Below are positions 1,351-10,088 of a stretch of DNA of 10,088 bases, piece by piece. The translations under genes and the position numbers were made by a program. The first letter of the stretch is position 1; every line of letters begins with the position of its first letter. The notes under the pieces are model-generated. The model saw nothing but the letters and a program-made list of their open reading frames with translations, made no database searches and was not told where the DNA came from. Source of the stretch: Oscillospiraceae bacterium (GTDB lineage: Bacteria > Bacillota > Clostridia > Oscillospirales > Oscillospiraceae); the NCBI GenBank assembly GCA_031280325.1, contig JAITGW010000103.1, positions 1-10,088 on the forward strand, written 5' to 3'.

Positions 1351-2190
1351 CTAAACCTCTATCGTGCCATCGTACACCTTGACGCAGTTTCCGGTCATGT
1401 ACACCGCCTCGTCGGTATAGTTAATTACAAGCTCCCCGCCGGGAGACATTATGCGCACGTCGGCGCCCTTTTCGCAGTGTCCGTTCAGAACCGCCGCGAC
1501 GACGGACGCGCACATTCCCGTGCCGCAGGCGAGCGTTTCGCCGCTGCCCCGCTCCCACACGCGCATTTTCAGCGTATTTTTGTCGATAACCTTAACAAAC
1601 TCCGCGTTCACGCGATCCGGGAAAAGCTTGTCATGCTCAAACTCCGGTCCGATTCTCTCAAGGTCAAGCGTGTCCGGCTCGTCAACAAACAAAACAGCGT
1701 GCGGATTGCCCATCGACACGCAGGTAATCTCCCGCTCCTGCCCCGCAATACTCACGCGGCGCGCAACAACCGTGTCCCCGCCGAGCGCGACGGGAATGTT
1801 CTTCGGATTAAGCTCCGCCTTGCCCATGTTTACGCGCGCCGCCGAAACCTGACCGTTCTGCTTATACAGCTCAAGCTCGCGCAAGCCGCTCTTCGTCTCG
1901 ATCGTGAGCCTGTCCTTGCGCACAATGCCGTTATCGTAAAGGTATTTCGCGACGCAGCGGATCGCATTGCCGCACATACCGCCCTCACTGCCGTCAAGGT
2001 TGAACATCCGCATACGCGCGTCGGCGACGTCGCTTCGCATAATAAGCACAACACCGTCCCCTCCGATTCCGAAATGGCGGTCAGCCAGAATAACCGACAG
2101 CGACTCCGGGCAGTTTATCTCCCTGTCCCACGCGTTGATGTAGATATAATCGTTGCCCGCGCCGTGCATTTTCGTAAAGTCCAGCTTCAT
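1351..2190 (-). other. dapF: dapF region with its own start codon and ribosome binding site inside the fused frame
   Basis: The ATG at 2190 begins MKLDFTKMHGAGNDYIYI, the normal N-terminus of DapF. It is preceded by AGGAG with 7 bases of spacing, a proper ribosome binding site. The product from here would be 279 residues, the usual DapF length, with nothing missing at either end. So a stand-alone DapF could be made by internal initiation whether or not the CarB frame reads through. A second in-frame ATG lies 15 bases upstream, but the AGGAG directly follows it, so 2190 is preferred. This is listed as an alternative product of the fused frame, not as a second locus. Confidence 0.6.
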
Positions 2191-5100
2191 GCGCTCACTC
2201 CTCATGGCGTTGATGTCAACAAGCTCCGTATTGATTTCATTATACCCTGAAAGCAAACTTTCCGCAAGGGCGTCCGCCGTGTCAAGACTCGTCAGGCACG
2301 GAATGCCCAGCGTCGTCGCGCGGCGTCGGATTTTCACGTCGTCGGCGGCGGGATTGCGGCCCGTTTCGGACGTTGATATGATATACGCCAGTTTACCGCT
2401 TTCAATTACGCTCATTGTGTTGTTTTTCGGCGACTCGCTTATTTTATTGACGGTGTTTACGCGCAGTCCGCTCTTTGTAAGCTCGTTTGCCGTGCCGCTC
2501 GTGGCGTACAGCTCAAAGCCCAGCCGCGCCAGCTTCTTTGCGATCTTCGCGATTTCCGGCTTGTCGGAGTCGCGGACGGTGATGAACACGCCGCCCTTTT
2601 TTTGCAGCTTATAGCCCGCCGCGACAAGCCCCTTATACAGGGCTTCTTTAAGCGTCTTGCCTACGCCGAGAACCTCGCCCGTGCTTTTCATCTCAGGGCC
2701 GAGCTGCGTATCGACGTCCGTAAGCTTCTCAAATGAAAACACCGGAACCTTGACGCACGTGTACGGCGGCGTTTTGTATACGCCGGGAGCATATCCCATT
2801 TCGCGTATGCTTATTCCAAGGCTCGCTTTTGTCGCGGCCTCGCACATGTTGATCCCCGTTACCTTTGACAGATACGGAACGGTGCGCGACGCGCGCGGAT
2901 TGACCTCAATGACGTAAACCTCGTCATCCATAACGATATACTGGATATTTATCAGCCCGCGCGCGTTGATTTTCATGCAGATGCTGCGCGTTTCCTGATA
3001 AATGCGCTCGGCAAGTCCGTCGTCGATGTTGATGTTCGGATATACCGCAATAGAGTCGCCGGAGTGTATGCCCGTGCGCTCGATATGCTCCATAATCCCG
3101 GGGATCAGCACGTCGCGCCCGTCGCAAATCGCGTCAACCTCAATCTCGCGCCCCGACAGATATTTGTCGATCAGCACCGGGTTATCCTGCTTTGCTCGCA
3201 GGATAATTTCCATATACTCTGTCACGTCAGCGTCGCTGCCGGCGATAATCATATTCTGCCCGCCAAGGACATAGCTCGGCCGAAGCAGGACGGGATATCC
3301 AAGCTTTGCCGCCGCGGCAAGCGCCTCCGCCGCCGTCATGACGGACAGCCCCACCGGGCGCTTGATGTTCAGCTCTTCAAGCACGGCGTCAAACCGCGCG
3401 CGGTCCTCACACATGTCGATTGTATCCGCGCTCGCCCCGATGATGCTCACACCGAGGGCAGCCAGCGCCGGCGCGAGCTTGATCGCGGTGCCTCCGCCGA
3501 AAGCGACGATGACGCCCTCAGGCTGCTCAACCTCGACAACCCGCATAACGTCCTCAATCGTCAGCGGCTCGAAATACAGCCTGTCGGCGGTGTCAAAGTC
3601 CGTGGATACCGTTTCGGGGTTGTTGTTGATAATTATGACCTCATACCCAAGCTCCTTGAGCGTCTGGCAGCAGTGGACGCAGGCATAGTCAAACTCAATC
3701 CCCTGTCCGATCCGAATCGGACCGGAGCCAAGCACGATAACGCGCGGCTTTGTGCTGCGCCTGGCGAATTCCAGCGCCTCGTCCTCCGCGCCGTTCGGTA
3801 TTGAATAGAAATACGGCGTTTCGGCGGAAAATTCCCCGCCGCATGTATCAACCATCTTGTACACGGGCGCGTTTTCCGGCGCGGGACCCTCGTCAAGGAT
3901 TTTCTTCAGCTTGTGCAAGAACCAGCGGTCAATTTTCGTAAGCGCAAATATCTCGTCAACGGCATACCCGCGCCGCATAGCTTCATACACGACAAACAGG
4001 CGTTCGTCAGTCACGCGCGCAAGCTCTTCCGCAAGCTTTTCGTCAGTATATCTCTGCACCGATGGCAGCTCAAGCGAGCGCAGTCCGATTTCAGCTCCGC
4101 GCACAGCCTTCAGCAACGCGGTTTCAAACGTATCGGCAATCGCCATGACTTCGCCGGTAGCCTTCATCTGCGTGCCGAGATCGCGCTTTGCGTATACAAA
4201 CTTGTCAAACGGCCATTTGGGAAACTTCACCGCGACATAGTCAAGCGTTGGTTCAAACGCCGCGTATGTTTTGCCCGTAACCGCGTTCGGAATCTCGTCG
4301 AGCGTGTAGCCGATCGCGATTTTTGTCGCAACCTTGGCGATCGGATAGCCCGTCGCCTTGCTTGCGAGCGCGGATGAGCGCGACACGCGCGGATTGACCT
4401 CGATGACGCGGTATTCAAACGAATTCGGGTCAAGCGCGAACTGAACGTTGCACCCTCCCTCTACCTTCAGCGCCTGTATGATATCGAGCGACGCCGTGCG
4501 CAGCATCTGATACTCACGGTCAGCAAGCGTCACAGCCGGGGCTATGACAATACTGTCGCCGGTATGGATGCCCACGGGATCGAAGTTTTCCATGGAACAG
4601 ACGGCGATGACGTTTCCGATTTTATCACGCATGACCTCGAACTCAATCTCTTTCCAGCCGGCGACGCTCATCTCAATGAGCACCTGTCCGATCGGTGATA
4701 GCGCCATTCCGTTCGCCGCGATATCGCGCAGCTCCTTTTCGTCGGCTGCAATTCCGCCGCCGCTTCCGCCGAGAGTGAACGCCGGGCGGACAATTACGGG
4801 ATACCCATGCTCGGCCGCAAAGTCAAGCGCTGTATCCAGCTCAGTCGCCACAACGGAGGGAATTACGGGCTGTCCGATCTCTTCCATCGTGTCCTTAAAC
4901 ATCTGGCGGTCCTCCGCCTTGTCAATCGTTTCCGGCGACGAGCCAAGAAGCCGAACTCCGTATTTTTCCAGCGTTCCGTCCCGCGCAAGCTGCATACAAA
5001 GCGTAAGCCCCGTCTGCCCGCCAAGTCCGGAGAGGATCGAGTCCGGGCGCTCCTTTTCGATTATGCGGCGAATCGTGTCACGCGTCAGCGGCTCGAGATA

Positions 5101-5292
5101 AATCTTGTCCGCCATCGCGCTGTCTGTCATAATCGTCGCGGGGTTTGAGTTGACAAGCACGATCTCAAGTCCGTCTCCGCGGAGAATACGGCACGCCTGC
5201 GTTCCGGCATAGTCAAACTCCGCCGCCTGCCCGATGACAATCGGCCCGGAGCCGATGACGAGAACCTTTTTAATGGATTTATCAAGTGGCAT
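1351..5292 (-). CDS. carB-dapF: Carbamoyl-phosphate synthase large chain joined in frame to diaminopimelate epimerase (CarB-DapF)
   Basis: One open frame of 1313 residues. Residues 1-1034 are CarB, which uses ammonia from CarA, bicarbonate and two ATP to make carbamoyl phosphate for pyrimidines and arginine. They hold two homologous ATP-grasp halves: the first with GSGPIVIGQAAEFDYAG at 14-30, R129, R169, E215, H243, Q284, E298 and N300; the second with GSGPIRIGQGIEFDYAC at 522-538 and EVNPRASR at 796-803. An MGS-like regulatory domain covers about 899-1015. Residues 1035-1313 are a full-length DapF (279 residues), which epimerises LL- to meso-diaminopimelate, with both catalytic cysteines (C73 in MCGNAIRC and C222 in ACGTGMC, DapF numbering). 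The start at 5292 follows GGAGGATAAGCAAC. No stop separates the parts. Residues about 1015-1034 form the linker. The second half has FGGG where FGGQ is usual. The fusion could be real, or the result of one lost base near 2245-2247. Domain calls are certain; the single polypeptide is not. Confidence 0.85.
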   Translation of the reverse strand: MPLDKSIKKVLVIGSGPIVIGQAAEFDYAGTQACRILRGDGLEIVLVNSNPATIMTDSAMADKIYLEPLTRDTIRRIIEKERPDSILSGLGGQTGLTLCMQLARDGTLEKYGVRLLGSSPETIDKAEDRQMFKDTMEEIGQPVIPSVVATELDTALDFAAEHGYPVIVRPAFTLGGSGGGIAADEKELRDIAANGMALSPIGQVLIEMSVAGWKEIEFEVMRDKIGNVIAVCSMENFDPVGIHTGDSIVIAPAVTLADREYQMLRTASLDIIQALKVEGGCNVQFALDPNSFEYRVIEVNPRVSRSSALASKATGYPIAKVATKIAIGYTLDEIPNAVTGKTYAAFEPTLDYVAVKFPKWPFDKFVYAKRDLGTQMKATGEVMAIADTFETALLKAVRGAEIGLRSLELPSVQRYTDEKLAEELARVTDERLFVVYEAMRRGYAVDEIFALTKIDRWFLHKLKKILDEGPAPENAPVYKMVDTCGGEFSAETPYFYSIPNGAEDEALEFARRSTKPRVIVLGSGPIRIGQGIEFDYACVHCCQTLKELGYEVIIINNNPETVSTDFDTADRLYFEPLTIEDVMRVVEVEQPEGVIVAFGGGTAIKLAPALAALGVSIIGASADTIDMCEDRARFDAVLEELNIKRPVGLSVMTAAEALAAAAKLGYPVLLRPSYVLGGQNMIIAGSDADVTEYMEIILRAKQDNPVLIDKYLSGREIEVDAICDGRDVLIPGIMEHIERTGIHSGDSIAVYPNINIDDGLAERIYQETRSICMKINARGLINIQYIVMDDEVYVIEVNPRASRTVPYLSKVTGINMCEAATKASLGISIREMGYAPGVYKTPPYTCVKVPVFSFEKLTDVDTQLGPEMKSTGEVLGVGKTLKEALYKGLVAAGYKLQKKGGVFITVRDSDKPEIAKIAKKLARLGFELYATSGTANELTKSGLRVNTVNKISESPKNNTMSVIESGKLAYIISTSETGRNPAADDVKIRRRATTLGIPCLTSLDTADALAESLLSGYNEINTELVDINAMRSERMKLDFTKMHGAGNDYIYINAWDREINCPESLSVILADRHFGIGGDGVVLIMRSDVADARMRMFNLDGSEGGMCGNAIRCVAKYLYDNGIVRKDRLTIETKSGLRELELYKQNGQVSAARVNMGKAELNPKNIPVALGGDTVVARRVSIAGQEREITCVSMGNPHAVLFVDEPDTLDLERIGPEFEHDKLFPDRVNAEFVKVIDKNTLKMRVWERGSGETLACGTGMCASVVAAVLNGHCEKGADVRIMSPGGELVINYTDEAVYMTGNCVKVYDGTIEV
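2239..2267 (-). promoter_or_regulatory. Possible internal sigma-70-type promoter for dapF-nadE-dapL
   Basis: On the minus strand a perfect TATAAT (2239-2244) lies 17 bases after TTGCGG (2262-2267). The -35 box matches only three of six consensus bases, and there is no extended -10 TGn. Transcription would start near 2232, leaving a leader of about 42 bases before the dapF ATG with the AGGAG intact. It lies in the last codons of carB, a plausible place for a promoter that uncouples dapF-nadE-dapL from carAB. Found by eye; a chance TATAAT is possible in any 10 kb. Confidence 0.35.
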
Positions 5293-5398: not shown

Positions 5399-5848
5399 TC
5401 ACGCCACGCCGCGCCGCGCGGCATAAGCTATCAGCGCCGCGACGCCGCCGTTCGTCAGCGCGGCAAGCTCCGGGCGGCCGCGCGGGTCATAGCGGTCGAT
5501 GATCGGCAGAATATCCTCCTCGCAGACATTTCCGACAGAAAGCGAGCAGCACAGCCGCACTTCCCCATCCGCCTCTATGGAGAGCGACTCAAGCCTGTCA
5601 AGCCTGCTCGTATACGGCATTGCGCCGCACGGCGCCGACAAATCCAAAGTCTCTCCCTGCGGAAAATATTCCGCGAGACAGCGCAGCGCGTTTCCTGCGG
5701 GAAAGATCACGTTCCCTCCGGAGGCAGATATACCAACGCCGGCAAAGCTTTTCAGAATCTCCCGCGTCGCCTCGTTGTACGGATTGCCGTCGCTCTCGCT
5801 CACGAGCCACACGGGGTGTACACGCAGACGCGCAATCCCCTCTGACAT
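5399..5848 (-). CDS. C-terminal fragment of the broken radical SAM protein (149 residues from its first ATG)
   Basis: This is the continuation of the radical SAM protein in the second frame, which is open upstream to the frameshift near 5930; 5848 is only its first ATG. No ribosome binding site stands before that ATG, which argues against independent translation. The part contains LSAPCGAMP, RLCCSLSVGNVC and a YDP segment followed by a glycine-rich helix (NGGVAALIAYAARRG). The paired cysteines could bind an auxiliary Fe-S cluster (inference). It ends at TGA 5399-5401, 106 bases before carB. Confidence 0.55.
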   Translation of the reverse strand: MSEGIARLRVHPVWLVSESDGNPYNEATREILKSFAGVGISASGGNVIFPAGNALRCLAEYFPQGETLDLSAPCGAMPYTSRLDRLESLSIEADGEVRLCCSLSVGNVCEEDILPIIDRYDPRGRPELAALTNGGVAALIAYAARRGVA

Positions 5849-5924
5849 GAGCGAGCGCGCAAACGCAAGCGCCGGCTCTAACGGTATATACTCCTGATGA
5901 AAGGCGTCCGCGCTGAGCAGAACA

Positions 5925-6269
5925 TCATTTCACTCCCGCCGCGCACAGCCTTGCTGCGGTTCGCTCAATTTCAGCCGCGTCCCGCGAAAAGAAGCCGTTC
6001 GTGATCAGCTGACGCGCCTCAACTCCGCAAGCCCGCGCCGCCTCGTGTATCTCGCAAACCGCATCCGGATACAGCAACGGCTCTCCGCCGAAGGTCATTA
6101 CGGACTTCACCGCGTATCTCCCGGCTGAGCTGCGCACGGCGCGCGAGGCAGCCTTGGCGTCTATTCCTCCGCCGTAACCGCTGACCGCCGCCTCAGAGCA
6201 GTGTCCGCACCTCCCGGTACAGGCGCGGGTGACGATGAACTCCGCGCGTTTTATCTCAGCAAACGCCAT
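5925..6269 (-). CDS. N-terminal fragment of the broken radical SAM protein (114 residues)
   Basis: Carries the radical SAM cluster motif CTGRCGHC at residues 17-24 and GGEP at 61-64, then runs into TGA at 5925-5927 just after the AAA run. At 114 residues it holds only the first part of the TIM-barrel-like core and would probably not fold into a working enzyme alone. The start at 6269 is the only good ATG upstream of the motif and has AAGGGAG before it. Confidence 0.7.
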   Translation of the reverse strand: MAFAEIKRAEFIVTRACTGRCGHCSEAAVSGYGGGIDAKAASRAVRSSAGRYAVKSVMTFGGEPLLYPDAVCEIHEAARACGVEARQLITNGFFSRDAAEIERTAARLCAAGVK

Positions 6270-6283
6270 GCCGCTCCCTTCCG

Positions 6284-7366
6284 CTACCGCGCCTCCATCA
6301 TCGCCGTGAATTTGTCGAACAAAAACGTCGTGTCACGCGGTCCGGCGCAAGCTTCGGGGTGGAACTGTACGGAGAATACCGGCGCATTTTTATAAATCAC
6401 GCCCTCGTTTGTTCCGTCATTTACATTCACAAACCACTCCCGCGCTGTCGTCTTGTCAATACTCTCCGAAACGACGGCGTAGCCATGGTTCTGCGTCGTA
6501 ATATATGTCCGCCCGCTGCCCATCTCCTTTGCGGGCTGATTCCCGCCGCGGTGTCCGTACTTGAGCTTTTCAATCGAGAATCCGTGCGCCAGCGCGAGAA
6601 GCTGATTGCCGAAGCATATGCCGAAAATCGGAATCCCAGATTTGCACAGCGTTTTGAGATTTTCGATAATCACCGAATTCTCAGTATCGCGCGGGTCTCC
6701 CGGTCCGTTTGAGAGCATAATTCCGTCATAGCCGCCCTCGATTACGGCGCGCGCCGGGGTGTCGTGCGGAAAAACCGTGACCTCGCACGATCTCCTCAGG
6801 AGCTCGCGCTTAATGTTCTCCTTGAGTCCGTAATCCATAAGCGCGACGCGGCGGCGCGCCGTCTCAGGCCGCTCCGAATACACGGTTTTTGTGGAGCACT
6901 CCGCAACGGCGTCCTTGATTCGGTACACGCGGATGTCGTCCGTCACGCGATCCGGCTTAACATTTGTTATTTTCCCGTTCATAACGCCGGACTGCCGTAT
7001 CAGCTTCGTAAGCCTCCGCGTATCAATGCCGTACAGTCCGACGACGCCGTGAGATTTCAAAAAAACGTCAAGACTTCCCTCGCTCCGAAAATTAGAGGGG
7101 TCTTGACACCATTGCCGCACTATATATCCTTTCGCCGCGGGCGCGGCGCTCTCAAAATCCGCCGGTATCACGCCGTAATTTCCGATAAGCGGAAACGTCT
7201 GCGTGATTATCTGTCCGTAATAGCTCTTGTCGGTCAAAGTTTCAAGATACCCCGTCATTCCCGTGGTGAACACTGTCTCACCCGTGACCTCTCCGACCGC
7301 GCCAAAGGAATAGCCCTCAAACATTTCGCCGTTTTCAAGTAGTAAATACGCCTTTTGCCTGTCCAT
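6284..7366 (-). CDS. carA: Carbamoyl-phosphate synthase small chain (CarA, glutaminase subunit)
   Basis: Hydrolyses glutamine and channels the ammonia to CarB. The 360-residue protein has the N-terminal CarA domain (about 1-150; TVFTTGMTGYLE at 31-42, YGIDTRRLT at 112-120) and a class I glutamine amidotransferase domain (about 172-355). The domain shows LSNGPGDP at 218-225, nucleophile Cys251 in GICFGNQLLALAHG, TQNHGYAV at 291-298, and His336 and Glu338 in FHPEA, completing the Cys-His-Glu triad. The usual GHQ after the nucleophile is GNQ here. The start at 7366 (MDRQKAYLLLENG) matches the family N-terminus and follows GGGAGG with 7 bases of spacing; the frame is open to an ATG at 7435 inside the previous gene, which is less likely. 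CarA is followed by the broken radical SAM gene, then carB, so the two subunit genes are not adjacent. Confidence 0.94.
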   Translation of the reverse strand: MDRQKAYLLLENGEMFEGYSFGAVGEVTGETVFTTGMTGYLETLTDKSYYGQIITQTFPLIGNYGVIPADFESAAPAAKGYIVRQWCQDPSNFRSEGSLDVFLKSHGVVGLYGIDTRRLTKLIRQSGVMNGKITNVKPDRVTDDIRVYRIKDAVAECSTKTVYSERPETARRRVALMDYGLKENIKRELLRRSCEVTVFPHDTPARAVIEGGYDGIMLSNGPGDPRDTENSVIIENLKTLCKSGIPIFGICFGNQLLALAHGFSIEKLKYGHRGGNQPAKEMGSGRTYITTQNHGYAVVSESIDKTTAREWFVNVNDGTNEGVIYKNAPVFSVQFHPEACAGPRDTTFLFDKFTAMMEAR

Positions 7367-7424
7367 ATCTATCCTCCCGCCCCTCCGTGCATTCATAAAG
7401 CCGCGCGCGTCATTCGCCGCGCCG

Positions 7425-7988
7425 TCACATCTCATACGTCCTCAAAATCGTCTCAGCGATCCCGCGCCGCGAGACGCGCATATCCATCGCCTGCCGCTCG
7501 ATATATTTGTGCGCCTCCGGCTCGGTCATCTTCATGTTCGCAATCAGCAGACACTTTGCCCGGTCGATGACGCGTATATCCTCAATTTTCTGCTGGAGCT
7601 TCAAATTTTCCCGCCGTATTATCGCAAACCGCGCGCGGGACGCCTCCGCAAGCTTTACAGCGCCCCAAAATGTTGTCCGGTTCAGCGGCTTTGACACCGT
7701 AAGTATACCATACTCCGCAAGCTTTTCGGAGGTCTCCATGAAAATTTCATCTTTTACGATGAGTATCACCTCACCGGAAAGGCGCTCCGCAAGTCTTTTC
7801 GCAAGTCCGTCGCCGCGCTCGTCCGCAAGCGGCGCGTTGATGACAAACATGTCAAATTCCGACGCGGTAAGCAGTCTGCGCGCTTCTCCGGCCGTCGTAA
7901 CCGACGCCGCGCGCTCTATCCCCGGAAGCATCGCGCGGATCTGCTCCGCGCTTTTTTCCGTCGGAGATATGATAAGCACGCTATCCAT
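7425..7988 (-). CDS. ANTAR-domain RNA-binding regulator with a degenerate receiver domain
   Basis: 187 residues: a CheY-like receiver fold (about 1-115), a coiled linker rich in charged residues (about 118-140), and a C-terminal ANTAR domain (about 130-187; KIEDIRVIDRAKCLLIANMK and the MTEPEAHKYIERQAM segment). ANTAR proteins bind paired hairpins in nascent RNA and block terminators. In clostridia, ANTAR regulators of this type sit beside glutamine synthetase genes and control nitrogen genes. The receiver lacks the phosphoacceptor aspartate (Asn51 in FVINAPLADE) and the N-terminal acidic pair (SPT at 8-10), but keeps the lysine (K100 in VSKP). So phosphorylation is not expected, and control by a partner or ligand is more likely (inference). 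Its ATG lies inside the preceding gene with an 8-base overlap (ATGGATAG) and only a weak ribosome binding site, so translation is probably coupled. Confidence 0.87.
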   Translation of the reverse strand: MDSVLIISPTEKSAEQIRAMLPGIERAASVTTAGEARRLLTASEFDMFVINAPLADERGDGLAKRLAERLSGEVILIVKDEIFMETSEKLAEYGILTVSKPLNRTTFWGAVKLAEASRARFAIIRRENLKLQQKIEDIRVIDRAKCLLIANMKMTEPEAHKYIERQAMDMRVSRRGIAETILRTYEM

Positions 7989-8826
7989 TCGCCGCGCTCG
8001 ACACCAGCTTCAGGATTTCCTTGTACGGATTGCACTTTGCGGGCAGATCCGTGTCCCGCATGGCGGCTTTGCCTCCGCGCGCGCTGACCGCGACGCGAAG
8101 CGCGAGCTTGCTTTCGGGCAAAAGCGCCGCGCCGTTCAGGGCTTCCAGCGACGCGAGTCCGTTCTGCCCCGCTACCGCGCCGACAACCGTCTTGAACGTT
8201 TGAATATTGTCCGCCGCGCACAGCGCGTCCGTCTCCGCAAGCGCAATCGTGTTCTGTCCCGGTCCCGCGGCGTGATACGACGCGATCGTCGAAACCGACA
8301 TTTCGGAAAGGTACGAGCATATCTCGCGCCGCACGTTCTCTCCCTTGTCCCTTGGAAAAATGTCAAAATAGCCCCCGTCGTCAAACGGTCTGTCCGTCGG
8401 ATTACCATCGGAATCCGTGCGAAACAGGTAAAAATCAGCCGAAACCAGGATCCTCAGCGTAATTCCCAGCAAATCAAGCTCCTCCGCCGCCGCGCGCAGA
8501 CGAGAGCGCGTGTCATACGGCGCCGTCACGCCGTCATGTCCGCGTATCTCACAGTAAAGCCGTGCGACGCGCCCGTGTGACGGGCGCCAGGGCAGAACCG
8601 AAAGCGTCCCCGGATCGGGAAAAAGCAGCGCGCTCCCGCCGCCGAAGCCCTCGAACTCTGCCGCGTTAAACTCCATCCCCCGCTCAAACGCGCGCGGCAA
8701 GCAATCCGGCGCGAGCGAGATGTTCTTCACCGCCCCGGTCAGATCCGTAAACGCAAGACGGATAAATTTAACGTCGCTGTCGCGATCCTTCACAAAACGC
8801 AGAACATCCTCGGTTGAGTTGCGCAT
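7981..8826 (-). CDS. Short glutamine-synthetase homologue lacking the catalytic core; probable pseudoenzyme
   Basis: 281 residues; bacterial type I glutamine synthetases have about 440. Residues 1-105 match the N-terminal beta-grasp domain (FIRLAFTDLTGAVKNI at 21-36, LFPDPGTLSVLPWRP at 68-82), and 106-225 match the start of the catalytic domain (GGYFDIFPRDKGENVRREI at 151-169, ADNIQTFKTVV at 205-215). From about 238 the protein aligns by eye with the far end of the catalytic domain (SKLALRVAVSARGG, then CNPYKEILKLVSSAANG, compare SPLIRIPASRG and ANPYLALSVLLAAGLDG). This implies an internal deletion of about 100 residues, including the NGSGMH segment. Residues at metal and ammonia positions are changed: Asp50-type to N54, E129 to S129, E131 to D131, E212 to A186, E220 to T193. 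Synthetase activity is therefore not expected. The start at 8826 follows AAGGAG. A sensing role with the overlapping ANTAR gene is plausible but unproven. Confidence 0.82.
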   Translation of the reverse strand: MRNSTEDVLRFVKDRDSDVKFIRLAFTDLTGAVKNISLAPDCLPRAFERGMEFNAAEFEGFGGGSALLFPDPGTLSVLPWRPSHGRVARLYCEIRGHDGVTAPYDTRSRLRAAAEELDLLGITLRILVSADFYLFRTDSDGNPTDRPFDDGGYFDIFPRDKGENVRREICSYLSEMSVSTIASYHAAGPGQNTIALAETDALCAADNIQTFKTVVGAVAGQNGLASLEALNGAALLPESKLALRVAVSARGGKAAMRDTDLPAKCNPYKEILKLVSSAANG

Positions 8827-8868
8827 TAGACTCTCCTTTTTTATGGCGCGAAATCCGCCGGCGCGAGT

Positions 8869-8889: not shown

Positions 8890-9618
8890 TCAGTTCGCTG
8901 TGTACATTTGCTTGTATGGGTTTGCCGCGTTGGGCGTGAGGACGTAATATTTGCTGCCCAGAAGCTCATTTGCGTCCTCACCGAATAGCGACGCGAAGCG
9001 CTTTAGGTATTCCGATATCGACACAACTTCCTCCGCCGCAGCCACGGCGCAGGCGACCTGACTCGGCAGTCCCTCCGGCGCGGCATCGCAGCGGATGAAG
9101 ATCTTCCCGCCGTGCATTCCCGTTCCGGTAAACCCGCCGATCTCCGGCTTGCCGCCGCTGCCCAGGCCGAGAACAATCAGCAGTCCGCCAGCCATGTATT
9201 CGCCAAGAAAGCTTCCGGTGCCGCCGCCGACGACAATGACCGGCCGCTTGTCGAGATACTGCTTCATGTGTATCCCCGTGCGATAGCCGGAGTCTCCCTT
9301 AACGTAAATAATCCCGCCGCGCATGGCATAGCCCAGCGCGTCTCCCGCTCTGCCGTGGACAATAATTTCACCGTCGTTCATCGTGTCGCCGACGGCGTCC
9401 TGCGCGTTGCCTAAAACCTCGACAAACGCGCCGTCAAGATAGCAGCCAAGCGCGTTTCCCGGCGTGCCGCTGATTTTAATGCGTTTGTCGCTCGTCGCGG
9501 ACGCCGCGATGAACCGCTCACCAAAGCTGTTCCGTATCTCAATATCGCCCGTCGCGGCGCGCACGGCGTCGTTAAGCGCCTGAAATCCAAGCTCAAAGGC
9601 CGAAAAAACCGTACTCAT
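8890..9618 (-). CDS. GXGXG-domain protein, like domain 3 of the glutamate synthase large subunit
   Basis: 242 residues forming a right-handed beta-helix of the GXGXG family, found as the C-terminal domain of the glutamate synthase alpha subunit, as separate subunits in split glutamate synthases, and in FwdC of formylmethanofuran dehydrogenase. Repeated G-x-x-G-x3-G units are visible: GTPGNALGCYLDG at 51-63, GNAQDAVGDTMNDG at 70-83, GRAGDALGYAMRGG at 89-102, GDSGYRTGIHM at 108-118, GGGTGSFLGEYMAGG at 131-145. In glutamate synthase this domain links the glutaminase and FMN domains structurally; it has no catalysis of its own. The start at 9618 follows GGGGAGG. It begins 2 bases after the oxidoreductase stop, so the two are tightly coupled. 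The FMN (synthase) and glutaminase parts are not in the window; they would be expected upstream, beyond 10088. Confidence 0.88.
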   Translation of the reverse strand: MSTVFSAFELGFQALNDAVRAATGDIEIRNSFGERFIAASATSDKRIKISGTPGNALGCYLDGAFVEVLGNAQDAVGDTMNDGEIIVHGRAGDALGYAMRGGIIYVKGDSGYRTGIHMKQYLDKRPVIVVGGGTGSFLGEYMAGGLLIVLGLGSGGKPEIGGFTGTGMHGGKIFIRCDAAPEGLPSQVACAVAAAEEVVSISEYLKRFASLFGEDANELLGSKYYVLTPNAANPYKQMYTAN

Positions 9619-9620
9619 AG

Positions 9621-10088
9621 TCAGCGTTCCTCCCCAAGATACTCTTTTCGCACTTTGCCGGAGAACGCCATAAGTCCCGGTCTCTTCGCGATTTTCTCAA
9701 AATCGATCGAGGAGAGCGGCGTCCCCTCCCGTATAAGGCTTGTATAGATTCCCGCGCGGTCATATGCCGGAATATCGCCCGCTTGCGGGTGTTTGTCGCC
9801 AATGAGGATAAAACCGATAAGCCTGTCGTTATCGTAAAACAGCTTCTTATAATTTGTCCCGTCGCGGTATTCATAAACGCTGCCCGTATAACTGCCCGCC
9901 GATAGGATATGCTTGCCAAAAAATCCGATCGCGTTGCACGGAAAGGCTTTTGTGAACGTGAACGCCACGCCCGCCATGTTTATCCCGGCGCATTCTCCCT
10001 GTAAATACGCGTTCGGCAGCACCGCCATTACCTTTGTGTCGCCGGTGACGACGTCACGGCTTTCAGTACAGTCCCCCGCGGCATAAAC
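9621..10088 (-). CDS. FAD/NAD(P)-dependent oxidoreductase, C-terminal 155 residues, cut by window edge
   Basis: The frame is open to the window edge and the gene clearly begins further upstream. The first visible residues, VYAAGDCTESRD, are the second FAD-binding motif (AAGD) of pyridine nucleotide-disulphide oxidoreductases, which lies about two-thirds of the way into such proteins. The rest, including YRDGTNYKKLFYDNDRLIGF, is a C-terminal domain of the kind seen in nitrite-reductase-like and rubredoxin-reductase-like enzymes. The ATG at 10028 falls after the AAGD motif, so it is not the start. Next to a GXGXG gene, it probably supplies electrons from NAD(P)H to a split glutamate synthase (inference from context). 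It ends at TGA 9621-9623, 2 bases before the next start. Confidence 0.82.
   Translation of the reverse strand, partial: VYAAGDCTESRDVVTGDTKVMAVLPNAYLQGECAGINMAGVAFTFTKAFPCNAIGFFGKHILSAGSYTGSVYEYRDGTNYKKLFYDNDRLIGFILIGDKHPQAGDIPAYDRAGIYTSLIREGTPLSSIDFEKIAKRPGLMAFSGKVRKEYLGEER

Follow-up and report, generated by a model that had tools for sequence, protein, structure and literature searches.

An ANTAR-type protein can be held by a partner protein, as described for the AmiC-AmiR and NasS-NasT complexes (PMC3795266). The RNA targets of ANTAR proteins are described as hexaloop hairpins, with A at the first and G at the fourth loop position, that overlap a terminator, and such targets have been reported upstream of glutamate synthase genes (Ramesh et al., PMC3369931). 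In Clostridium saccharobutylicum, antitermination by NitR induces the glutamine synthetase (GS) and glutamate synthase (GOGAT) genes under nitrogen limitation, through a mechanism that is incompletely understood (PMC6316151). Here we analyze a stretch of 10,088 nucleotides (the window), which is the whole of contig JAITGW010000103.1 from the 1.1-Mb, 64% complete genome of an Oscillospiraceae bacterium (assembly GCA_031280325.1). On its minus strand, a gene for a GS-like protein of 281 residues (7981..8826) is followed by an overlapping gene for an ANTAR antiterminator protein of 187 residues (7425..7988). We consider it probable (roughly 0.6) that this dead, cut-down type I GS regulates the ANTAR antiterminator as its partner protein, in the fashion of AmiC-AmiR.

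The shortened glutamine synthetase-like protein

The initial annotation of the window had described an intact frame for an internally deleted, apparently dead GS, with a strong ribosome binding site and an overlap with the next gene. The gene is real: it lies on the minus strand as an open reading frame of 281 codons with an ATG start, AAGGAG can be read directly at 8833..8838 on the same strand, and its stop overlaps the start of the ANTAR gene by 8 bases (7981..7988). Pfam recognizes Gln-synt_N and, of Gln-synt_C, positions 2-133 of 344 only; the TIGR00653 score (111.8 bits vs a cut-off of 429) is far under the GlnA threshold, and the catalytic domain is incomplete. The protein has the beta-grasp and catalytic barrel fold of type I GS, with an N-terminal beta-grasp domain (residues 18-94), the beginning of the catalytic domain (104-224), and a short tail (240-281). 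AlphaFold gave a compact GS-like model with a mean pLDDT of 91.9 (longer members made up 42 of the 53 rows of its input alignment and may have biased it), and this model matches solved GS structures, 4s0r and 7tfa among them, along its entire length.

Enzyme residues are numbered below as in Escherichia coli GlnA without Met. Alignment to this enzyme bore out the five replaced acids that had been called by eye (D50 to N54, E129 to S129, E131 to D131, E212 to A186, and E220 to T193). In the window protein, S, D, A, T, A, and R stand at the metal ligands E129, E131, E212, E220, H269, and E357, and from H269 to R359 the enzyme positions are either replaced or deleted. The claim of one internal loss of about 100 residues including the NGSGMH segment was right about the motif letters, which are gone, and has to be revised as to the rest: compared with the full-length relatives L043 and L079, the window protein is short by 60-64 residues internally and by 86-87 at the C-terminus, and the strand at the NGSGMH position is retained as residues 240-249 (KLALRVAVSA), judging from the alignment and the model. 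The internal junction is placed approximately at residues 249-255 (8062..8082, minus strand), on the basis of the alignment, the gap counts, and the model, whose strands here are 240-249 and 255-262; it separates the strand standing in for NGSGMH from a strand/helix with CNPY. Among six short proteins measured against the same two relatives, four have one internal gap of 60-73 residues and a C-terminal loss of 83-87, and L035 and L036 have several smaller gaps instead of one.

In all 14 short proteins aligned, E212, E220, and H269 are missing, and gaps stand at R321, E327, R339, and R344 (a separate alignment gives L035 and L036 an R at 321); a few rows show stray matching letters at R355, E357, or R359 within the poorly aligned tail. 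As predicted from these alignments, the gene encodes a catalytically dead, shortened type I GS fold. Because the classical site is lost in all 14 short members examined, we judge the sensing of glutamine or ATP at that site, which the initial annotation had suggested, to be unlikely. That the protein is an enzyme with a different, non-GS activity is highly improbable: GS relatives with other acceptors do exist, and a glutamate-methylamine ligase is among the matches, but the residues just listed are missing throughout the short rows.

The short form is carried by other genomes as well. A protein search (best 120 of 3958 matches) returned ten further proteins of 264-292 residues with the same architecture before a jump to longer matches, and the organisms named among these ten are all Oscillospiraceae. 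The short gene is present in nine of 12 genus genomes (completeness 63-95%, and 63-80% for the three without the gene), so that homologues of the same length with the same deletion beside an ANTAR gene do occur; an assembly error or a local deletion is rejected because the same short form is found in other genomes. Full-length homologues with intact ligands exist too, in other genera. Among the best rows listed from a family scan of 400 genomes, short frames came from members of the genus, from G248, and from G126, whose frame runs off its contig. One GS-like protein of the genus (L040:1996-2901) has a proline-rich near-repeat insertion after about residue 60.

The 14 short rows, at 42-59% identity to the window protein, share 61 invariant columns. 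In the one pair compared (L035/L036, which does not include the window gene), the ratio of nonsynonymous to synonymous substitution rates (dN/dS; NG86) is 0.099 for the GS-like gene, 0.095 for its N-terminal part, and 0.102 for its tail; the neighboring genes gave 0.082 (ANTAR), 0.081 (CarA), 0.034 (GXGXG), 0.108 (FAD), and 0.046 (ferredoxin). The GS-like gene is under purifying selection in this pair, with a ratio that is not near 1, and from this value together with the confident predicted fold we judge a pseudogene unlikely, in agreement with the initial view that the gene is not decaying. The frame might also be retained for translational coupling to the ANTAR gene, with the protein itself inert, as could be suspected from the stop/start overlap in the window and the close spacing in several relatives; the low ratios of both the N-terminal part and the tail, the invariant columns, and the fold make this improbable.

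The 12 incomplete genomes of the genus yielded no full-length type I GS. Eleven of them have another GS, whose match to glnN starts at its first residues, and Pfam confirmed this second GS as type III in the window's own genome (L041) and in L044. The proposal that the GS-like protein senses a true type I synthetase is unsupported because no type I GS was found in these 12 genomes, and the poisoning of a type I GS oligomer was rejected on the same ground.

The ANTAR partner and catalytic loss in longer relatives

The ANTAR protein of the window scores 59.5 bits against PF03861, and its structure matches include Rv1626 and EutV (6wsh). A receiver fold, a long helix (residues 104-152), and the ANTAR domain (130-182) follow one another in this order, and the protein has the coiled coil together with the ANTAR domain. 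Position 51, which aligns with the phospho-aspartate of Rv1626, is N in the window protein and in 89 of 96 sequences (D in one). At position 8, where the acidic pair would have its first acid, each of the 96 carries S, T, C, or A, and at least seven have D at position 9. The phospho-accepting aspartate of EutV-type response regulators is absent here. An ANTAR receiver without the usual phosphorylation site should therefore be switched by something else, and the one near-constant neighbor of this protein is the GS-like protein.

An ANTAR gene follows the GS-like gene on the same strand in 78 of 80 scanned loci (the best of 587, which hence lean toward close relatives; L072 repeats L038), and the remaining two, L138 and L148, end 102 and 170 bases past the GS-like frame. 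The gap between the two genes is about 440 bases in L093. All 17 loci from genome searches that have a GS-like gene of this family show the same order (the ANTAR gene of L048 is cut by the contig end). The GS-like gene occurs in 44 of 99 genomes (the window's own is one of the 99), and 43 of the 44 also gave an ANTAR match, with the partner class separated from canonical type I GS at E<=1e-50, a threshold picked after viewing the lists. A canonical type I GS adjoins a more distant ANTAR gene in the two genomes looked at (L158, L159), and the GS-ANTAR pairing may therefore predate the loss of catalysis.

Immediately upstream of the GS-like gene, the window encodes the GXGXG (C-terminal) domain subunit of a split glutamate synthase (8890..9618, minus strand; PF01493 and synteny). 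The GS-like protein could be a structural or chaperone subunit of this enzyme, or of another enzyme of the operon, with the ANTAR neighborhood reflecting joint nitrogen expression only; its gene adjoins those for glutamate synthase both in the window and at 6 of 8 fetched genus loci, and it is under selection in the pair above. We find this rather unlikely, since 78 of the 80 scanned loci have ANTAR next in line but just 44 have GXGXG (some loci are cut upstream by contig ends).

Longer members of the family have also lost catalytic residues. Among the 79 longer scanned members, 22 lack at least one of the six metal ligands and 14 lack at least two, and the flap residue E327 is K in 40, E in 30, R in four, and another letter in five. 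When 110 rows were scored (hand-picked ones included), 27 kept the six metal ligands together with D50, R321, R339, R344, R355, and R359 (E. coli is among these, and three have D or A at E327), 41 kept the metal ligands with K or R at E327, and 42 had lost a metal ligand (15 of them short); some single ligand changes may be weak effects or sequencing errors. Strong cases of loss outside the genus are L098 (Pseudoruminococcus massiliensis), L143, L090/P0039, L087/L091, L082, and a Lachnospiraceae-type group (L086/L097/L113/L119/L124/L140/L142). Altered copies are found in the named strains of P. massiliensis (L098), Pseudobutyrivibrio ruminis (L140), and, more mildly, Acetanaerobacterium elongatum (L132). 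All 20 genomes checked, 15 of which have metal-ligand losses, contain a second GS of type III size; the GS activity of this gene therefore looks dispensable, while the gene stays beside ANTAR. As a separate observation, full-length members on the shorter side, of about 390-410 residues (e.g., L042, L044, L046, L048, L049, and L051), mostly have lysine at E327, and they are also without roughly 35 C-terminal residues of the 435-440-residue members.

A tree required at least 14 changes to the dead state, a soft number from a quick tree with weak inner branches, to which P0039, P0044, P0053, P0054, P0103, and P0012 had been added for their odd or different look (P0053 was then dropped, and L072, on the same contig as L038, was left out). 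Because of these features we prefer the scan count of 22 of 79. In another genus, G248 carries a GS-like gene for 259 residues (L152:3478-4257) with nearly the same trimmed core, adjoining an ANTAR gene. A free tree of 44 rows (without L035, L036, L093, E. coli, L072, and P0053) placed it among the E327-to-K rows (SH-aLRT 96). The approximately unbiased (AU) test did not reject one clade of G248 and the genus (p 0.72; the constrained tree scored 18.8 log units higher), and we therefore do not claim an independent second excision. The simplest account would be that the type I GS of the pair long had a second job on the ANTAR protein, that the type III GS took over catalysis, and that the genus shows the remnant of an enzyme selected for the second job alone.

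Leader elements of glnN and the proposed switch

Hexaloop hairpins with A1 and G4 that overlap a terminator were found upstream of candidate target genes by a rule loosened after reading the leaders, which makes the glnN count partly post hoc. Of 33 glnN upstream regions, 26 have the element (8 of 10 within the genus), as do 10 of 17 for GATase2 and 9 of 96 for the GS-like gene; seven control genes scored identically had it in one of 246 upstream regions, and it occurred in at most 0.0027 of shuffled sequences. In a typical genus leader (L066), GCGAAC-AATGGT-GTTCGC is followed by a long hairpin ending in ACCATTTATTTTTT and then by the glnN start. The element is not visible in the window's own genome because the glnN contig begins 48 bases upstream of the gene start, with a T-run like those of the other leaders. 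A second hexaloop hairpin is present in L044, L077, and L110.

A first, strict dual-hairpin scan found nothing, a second scan that included the terminator found four elements (one inside a coding region) vs 0.33 in shuffles, and a third found 15 vs 0.0 in shuffles, four of the 15 not being before a recognized gene. An Rfam gathering search of seven loci found no such RNA family. A pattern search across the genus gave 20 matches vs seven in the reversed control. Of the 20, nine lie upstream of glnN and one upstream of the gene for an ABC transporter ATPase; four fall in a repeated coding site and six elsewhere. The hairpin and terminator before the ATPase gene (ABC_tran and TOBE_2) lie at about 1500-1580 of L161 (G006:C46), and we take this transporter to be of the polyamine type. 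The coding site, GAACAATGACGTTC, recurs inside an apparent single conserved coding region in four genus genomes (L169, L172, L173, and L177) and is probably not a leader.

A switch could be built from these parts as follows. The GS-like protein would bind the pseudoreceiver or the coiled coil of the ANTAR protein, and a nitrogen signal, read elsewhere than at the lost classical site, would alter this contact. The free or activated ANTAR dimer would bind the A--G-- hexaloop hairpin in the glnN leader, where the RNA element itself is evident, and would prevent the terminator from forming, upon which the true, type III GS would be made. We infer the direction of control by the GS-like protein. 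More widely, GS-ANTAR may be a Clostridia-wide two-protein nitrogen switch in which GS senses for an unphosphorylatable antiterminator, catalysis was repeatedly lost with the pairing retained, and, in the genus, excision of the catalytic block left a minimal GS-fold sensor that controls type III GS expression; on this wider idea our judgment is evenly balanced.

Contact of the GS-like protein with the type III enzyme or with ANTAR is possible. A direct action on GlnN, as an inhibitor, a decoy, or a subunit of mixed oligomers, would fit three observations: no full-length GS other than GlnN was found in the genus, the leader element stands before glnN, and at least 15 of the 80 scanned loci, outside the genus, include a glnN start in the stretch fetched. 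It is unlikely in our view, because GlnN is a distant GS of about 700 residues and the two genes lie on different contigs in nine of nine genus genomes with the short gene, whereas ANTAR is adjacent.

Several observations weigh against a regulatory partnership of the GS-like and ANTAR proteins. Some short members retain D50 (7/14), E129 (8/14), or E131 (3/14), and the selection estimate comes from a single pair. Within the genus, the element was found neither before GATase2 (0/5) nor upstream of the GS-like gene (0/8), and the genus leaders gave no identified counterpart to the known motif's second hairpin. A degenerate GS-like gene (E212Q, E220A, H269G) occurs in G013 (L157), a genome with no ANTAR match, and G026 and G017 have an ANTAR gene and no recognized GS-like gene. 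Neither protein, therefore, strictly needs the other, and conserved neighbors may share expression only. Of the function first proposed for this gene, a dead, selected, ANTAR-tied, and plausible regulator stands; the sensing of glutamine or ATP at the classical site, or of a type I synthetase, is unsupported.

Gene neighborhood and comparison with known systems

Upstream of the GXGXG gene, the window ends in a pyridine-nucleotide/FAD oxidoreductase subunit of the same operon (9621..10088, minus strand), cut by the contig end and identified through Pfam, synteny, and its full-length relative L034:5252-6532. Downstream of the pair lies carA (6284..7435, minus strand; Pfam and synteny), as in 6 of 8 fetched genus loci (none at L034 and L040). 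Farther along the same strand, 1351-5292 is one continuous frame of 1313 residues, carB + dapF, in which Pfam finds the carbamoyl-phosphate synthase large subunit fused to diaminopimelate epimerase; this fusion matches over its whole length as one stretch in L033, L036, L038, and L039, plus L047 of another genus. At 5399-6269 (minus strand), a radical SAM protein seems broken, with a 114-residue frame that has the first part of the domain and a separate 149-residue frame with no Pfam match. An adenylosuccinate synthetase gene is found within the glutamate synthase operon of L034 (called by Pfam) and of L033, L036, L037, and L038 (called by the same start).

Neither a GS pseudoenzyme from bacteria nor a GS-like partner of ANTAR came up in our literature search, which is weak evidence of novelty because most subscription papers lay outside the search. 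Lengsin, a lens protein of vertebrates, is a eukaryotic GS-like pseudoenzyme that has the GS fold without GS activity and is not known to have an ANTAR; one match of our protein search (P0007) carries this name in a source, probably as an automatic label.

If the GS-like protein is indeed the regulatory partner, an enzyme would have been caught becoming a regulator, with the intermediate stages in living relatives (ligands intact, flap residue swapped, metal ligands lost, and catalytic block excised), nearly all beside the same ANTAR partner. ANTAR systems would gain another kind of partner protein, there would be a hint of how NitR-type antiterminators of Clostridia read nitrogen, and many Clostridia genes annotated as glutamine synthetase may make no glutamine. 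The named strains mentioned above (L098, L140, and L132) render the GS-ANTAR idea testable.

AmiC binds amides, and the receiver of AmiR is not known to be phosphorylated. The present pair resembles AmiC-AmiR and NasS-NasT in that an ANTAR protein would be switched by a partner encoded in the adjacent gene (PMC3795266). AmiC and NasS are periplasmic-binding-protein-like, NasS being the nitrate protein, whereas the partner described here has a predicted GS fold. The pair may work like these partner-controlled ANTAR systems but is not one of them. With EutV it shares the receiver, the coiled coil, the ANTAR domain, the A1/G4 hexaloop, and the terminator overlap (PMC3369931; 6wsh); EutV is phosphorylated, our protein lacks the phospho-accepting aspartate, and the second EutV hairpin has no identified counterpart in this genus. 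The control of a nitrogen regulator by contact with GS reminds us of GS-TnrA and GS-GlnR in Bacillus and kin (4s0r, 7tfa; PMC6316151), where an active, feedback-inhibited enzyme acts on a DNA-binding regulator, while here there is no active site and the regulator would bind RNA. NitR of C. saccharobutylicum NCP262 (Stutz et al., 2007, cited in PMC6316151) is likewise an ANTAR antiterminator that induces GS/GOGAT genes, and the canonical type I GS beside an ANTAR gene in L158 and L159 adds to this likeness; the pair of the window departs from NitR in that its GS partner is, as predicted, dead and cut short, type III is the sole full-length GS that was found, and glnN is the gene preceded by the element.
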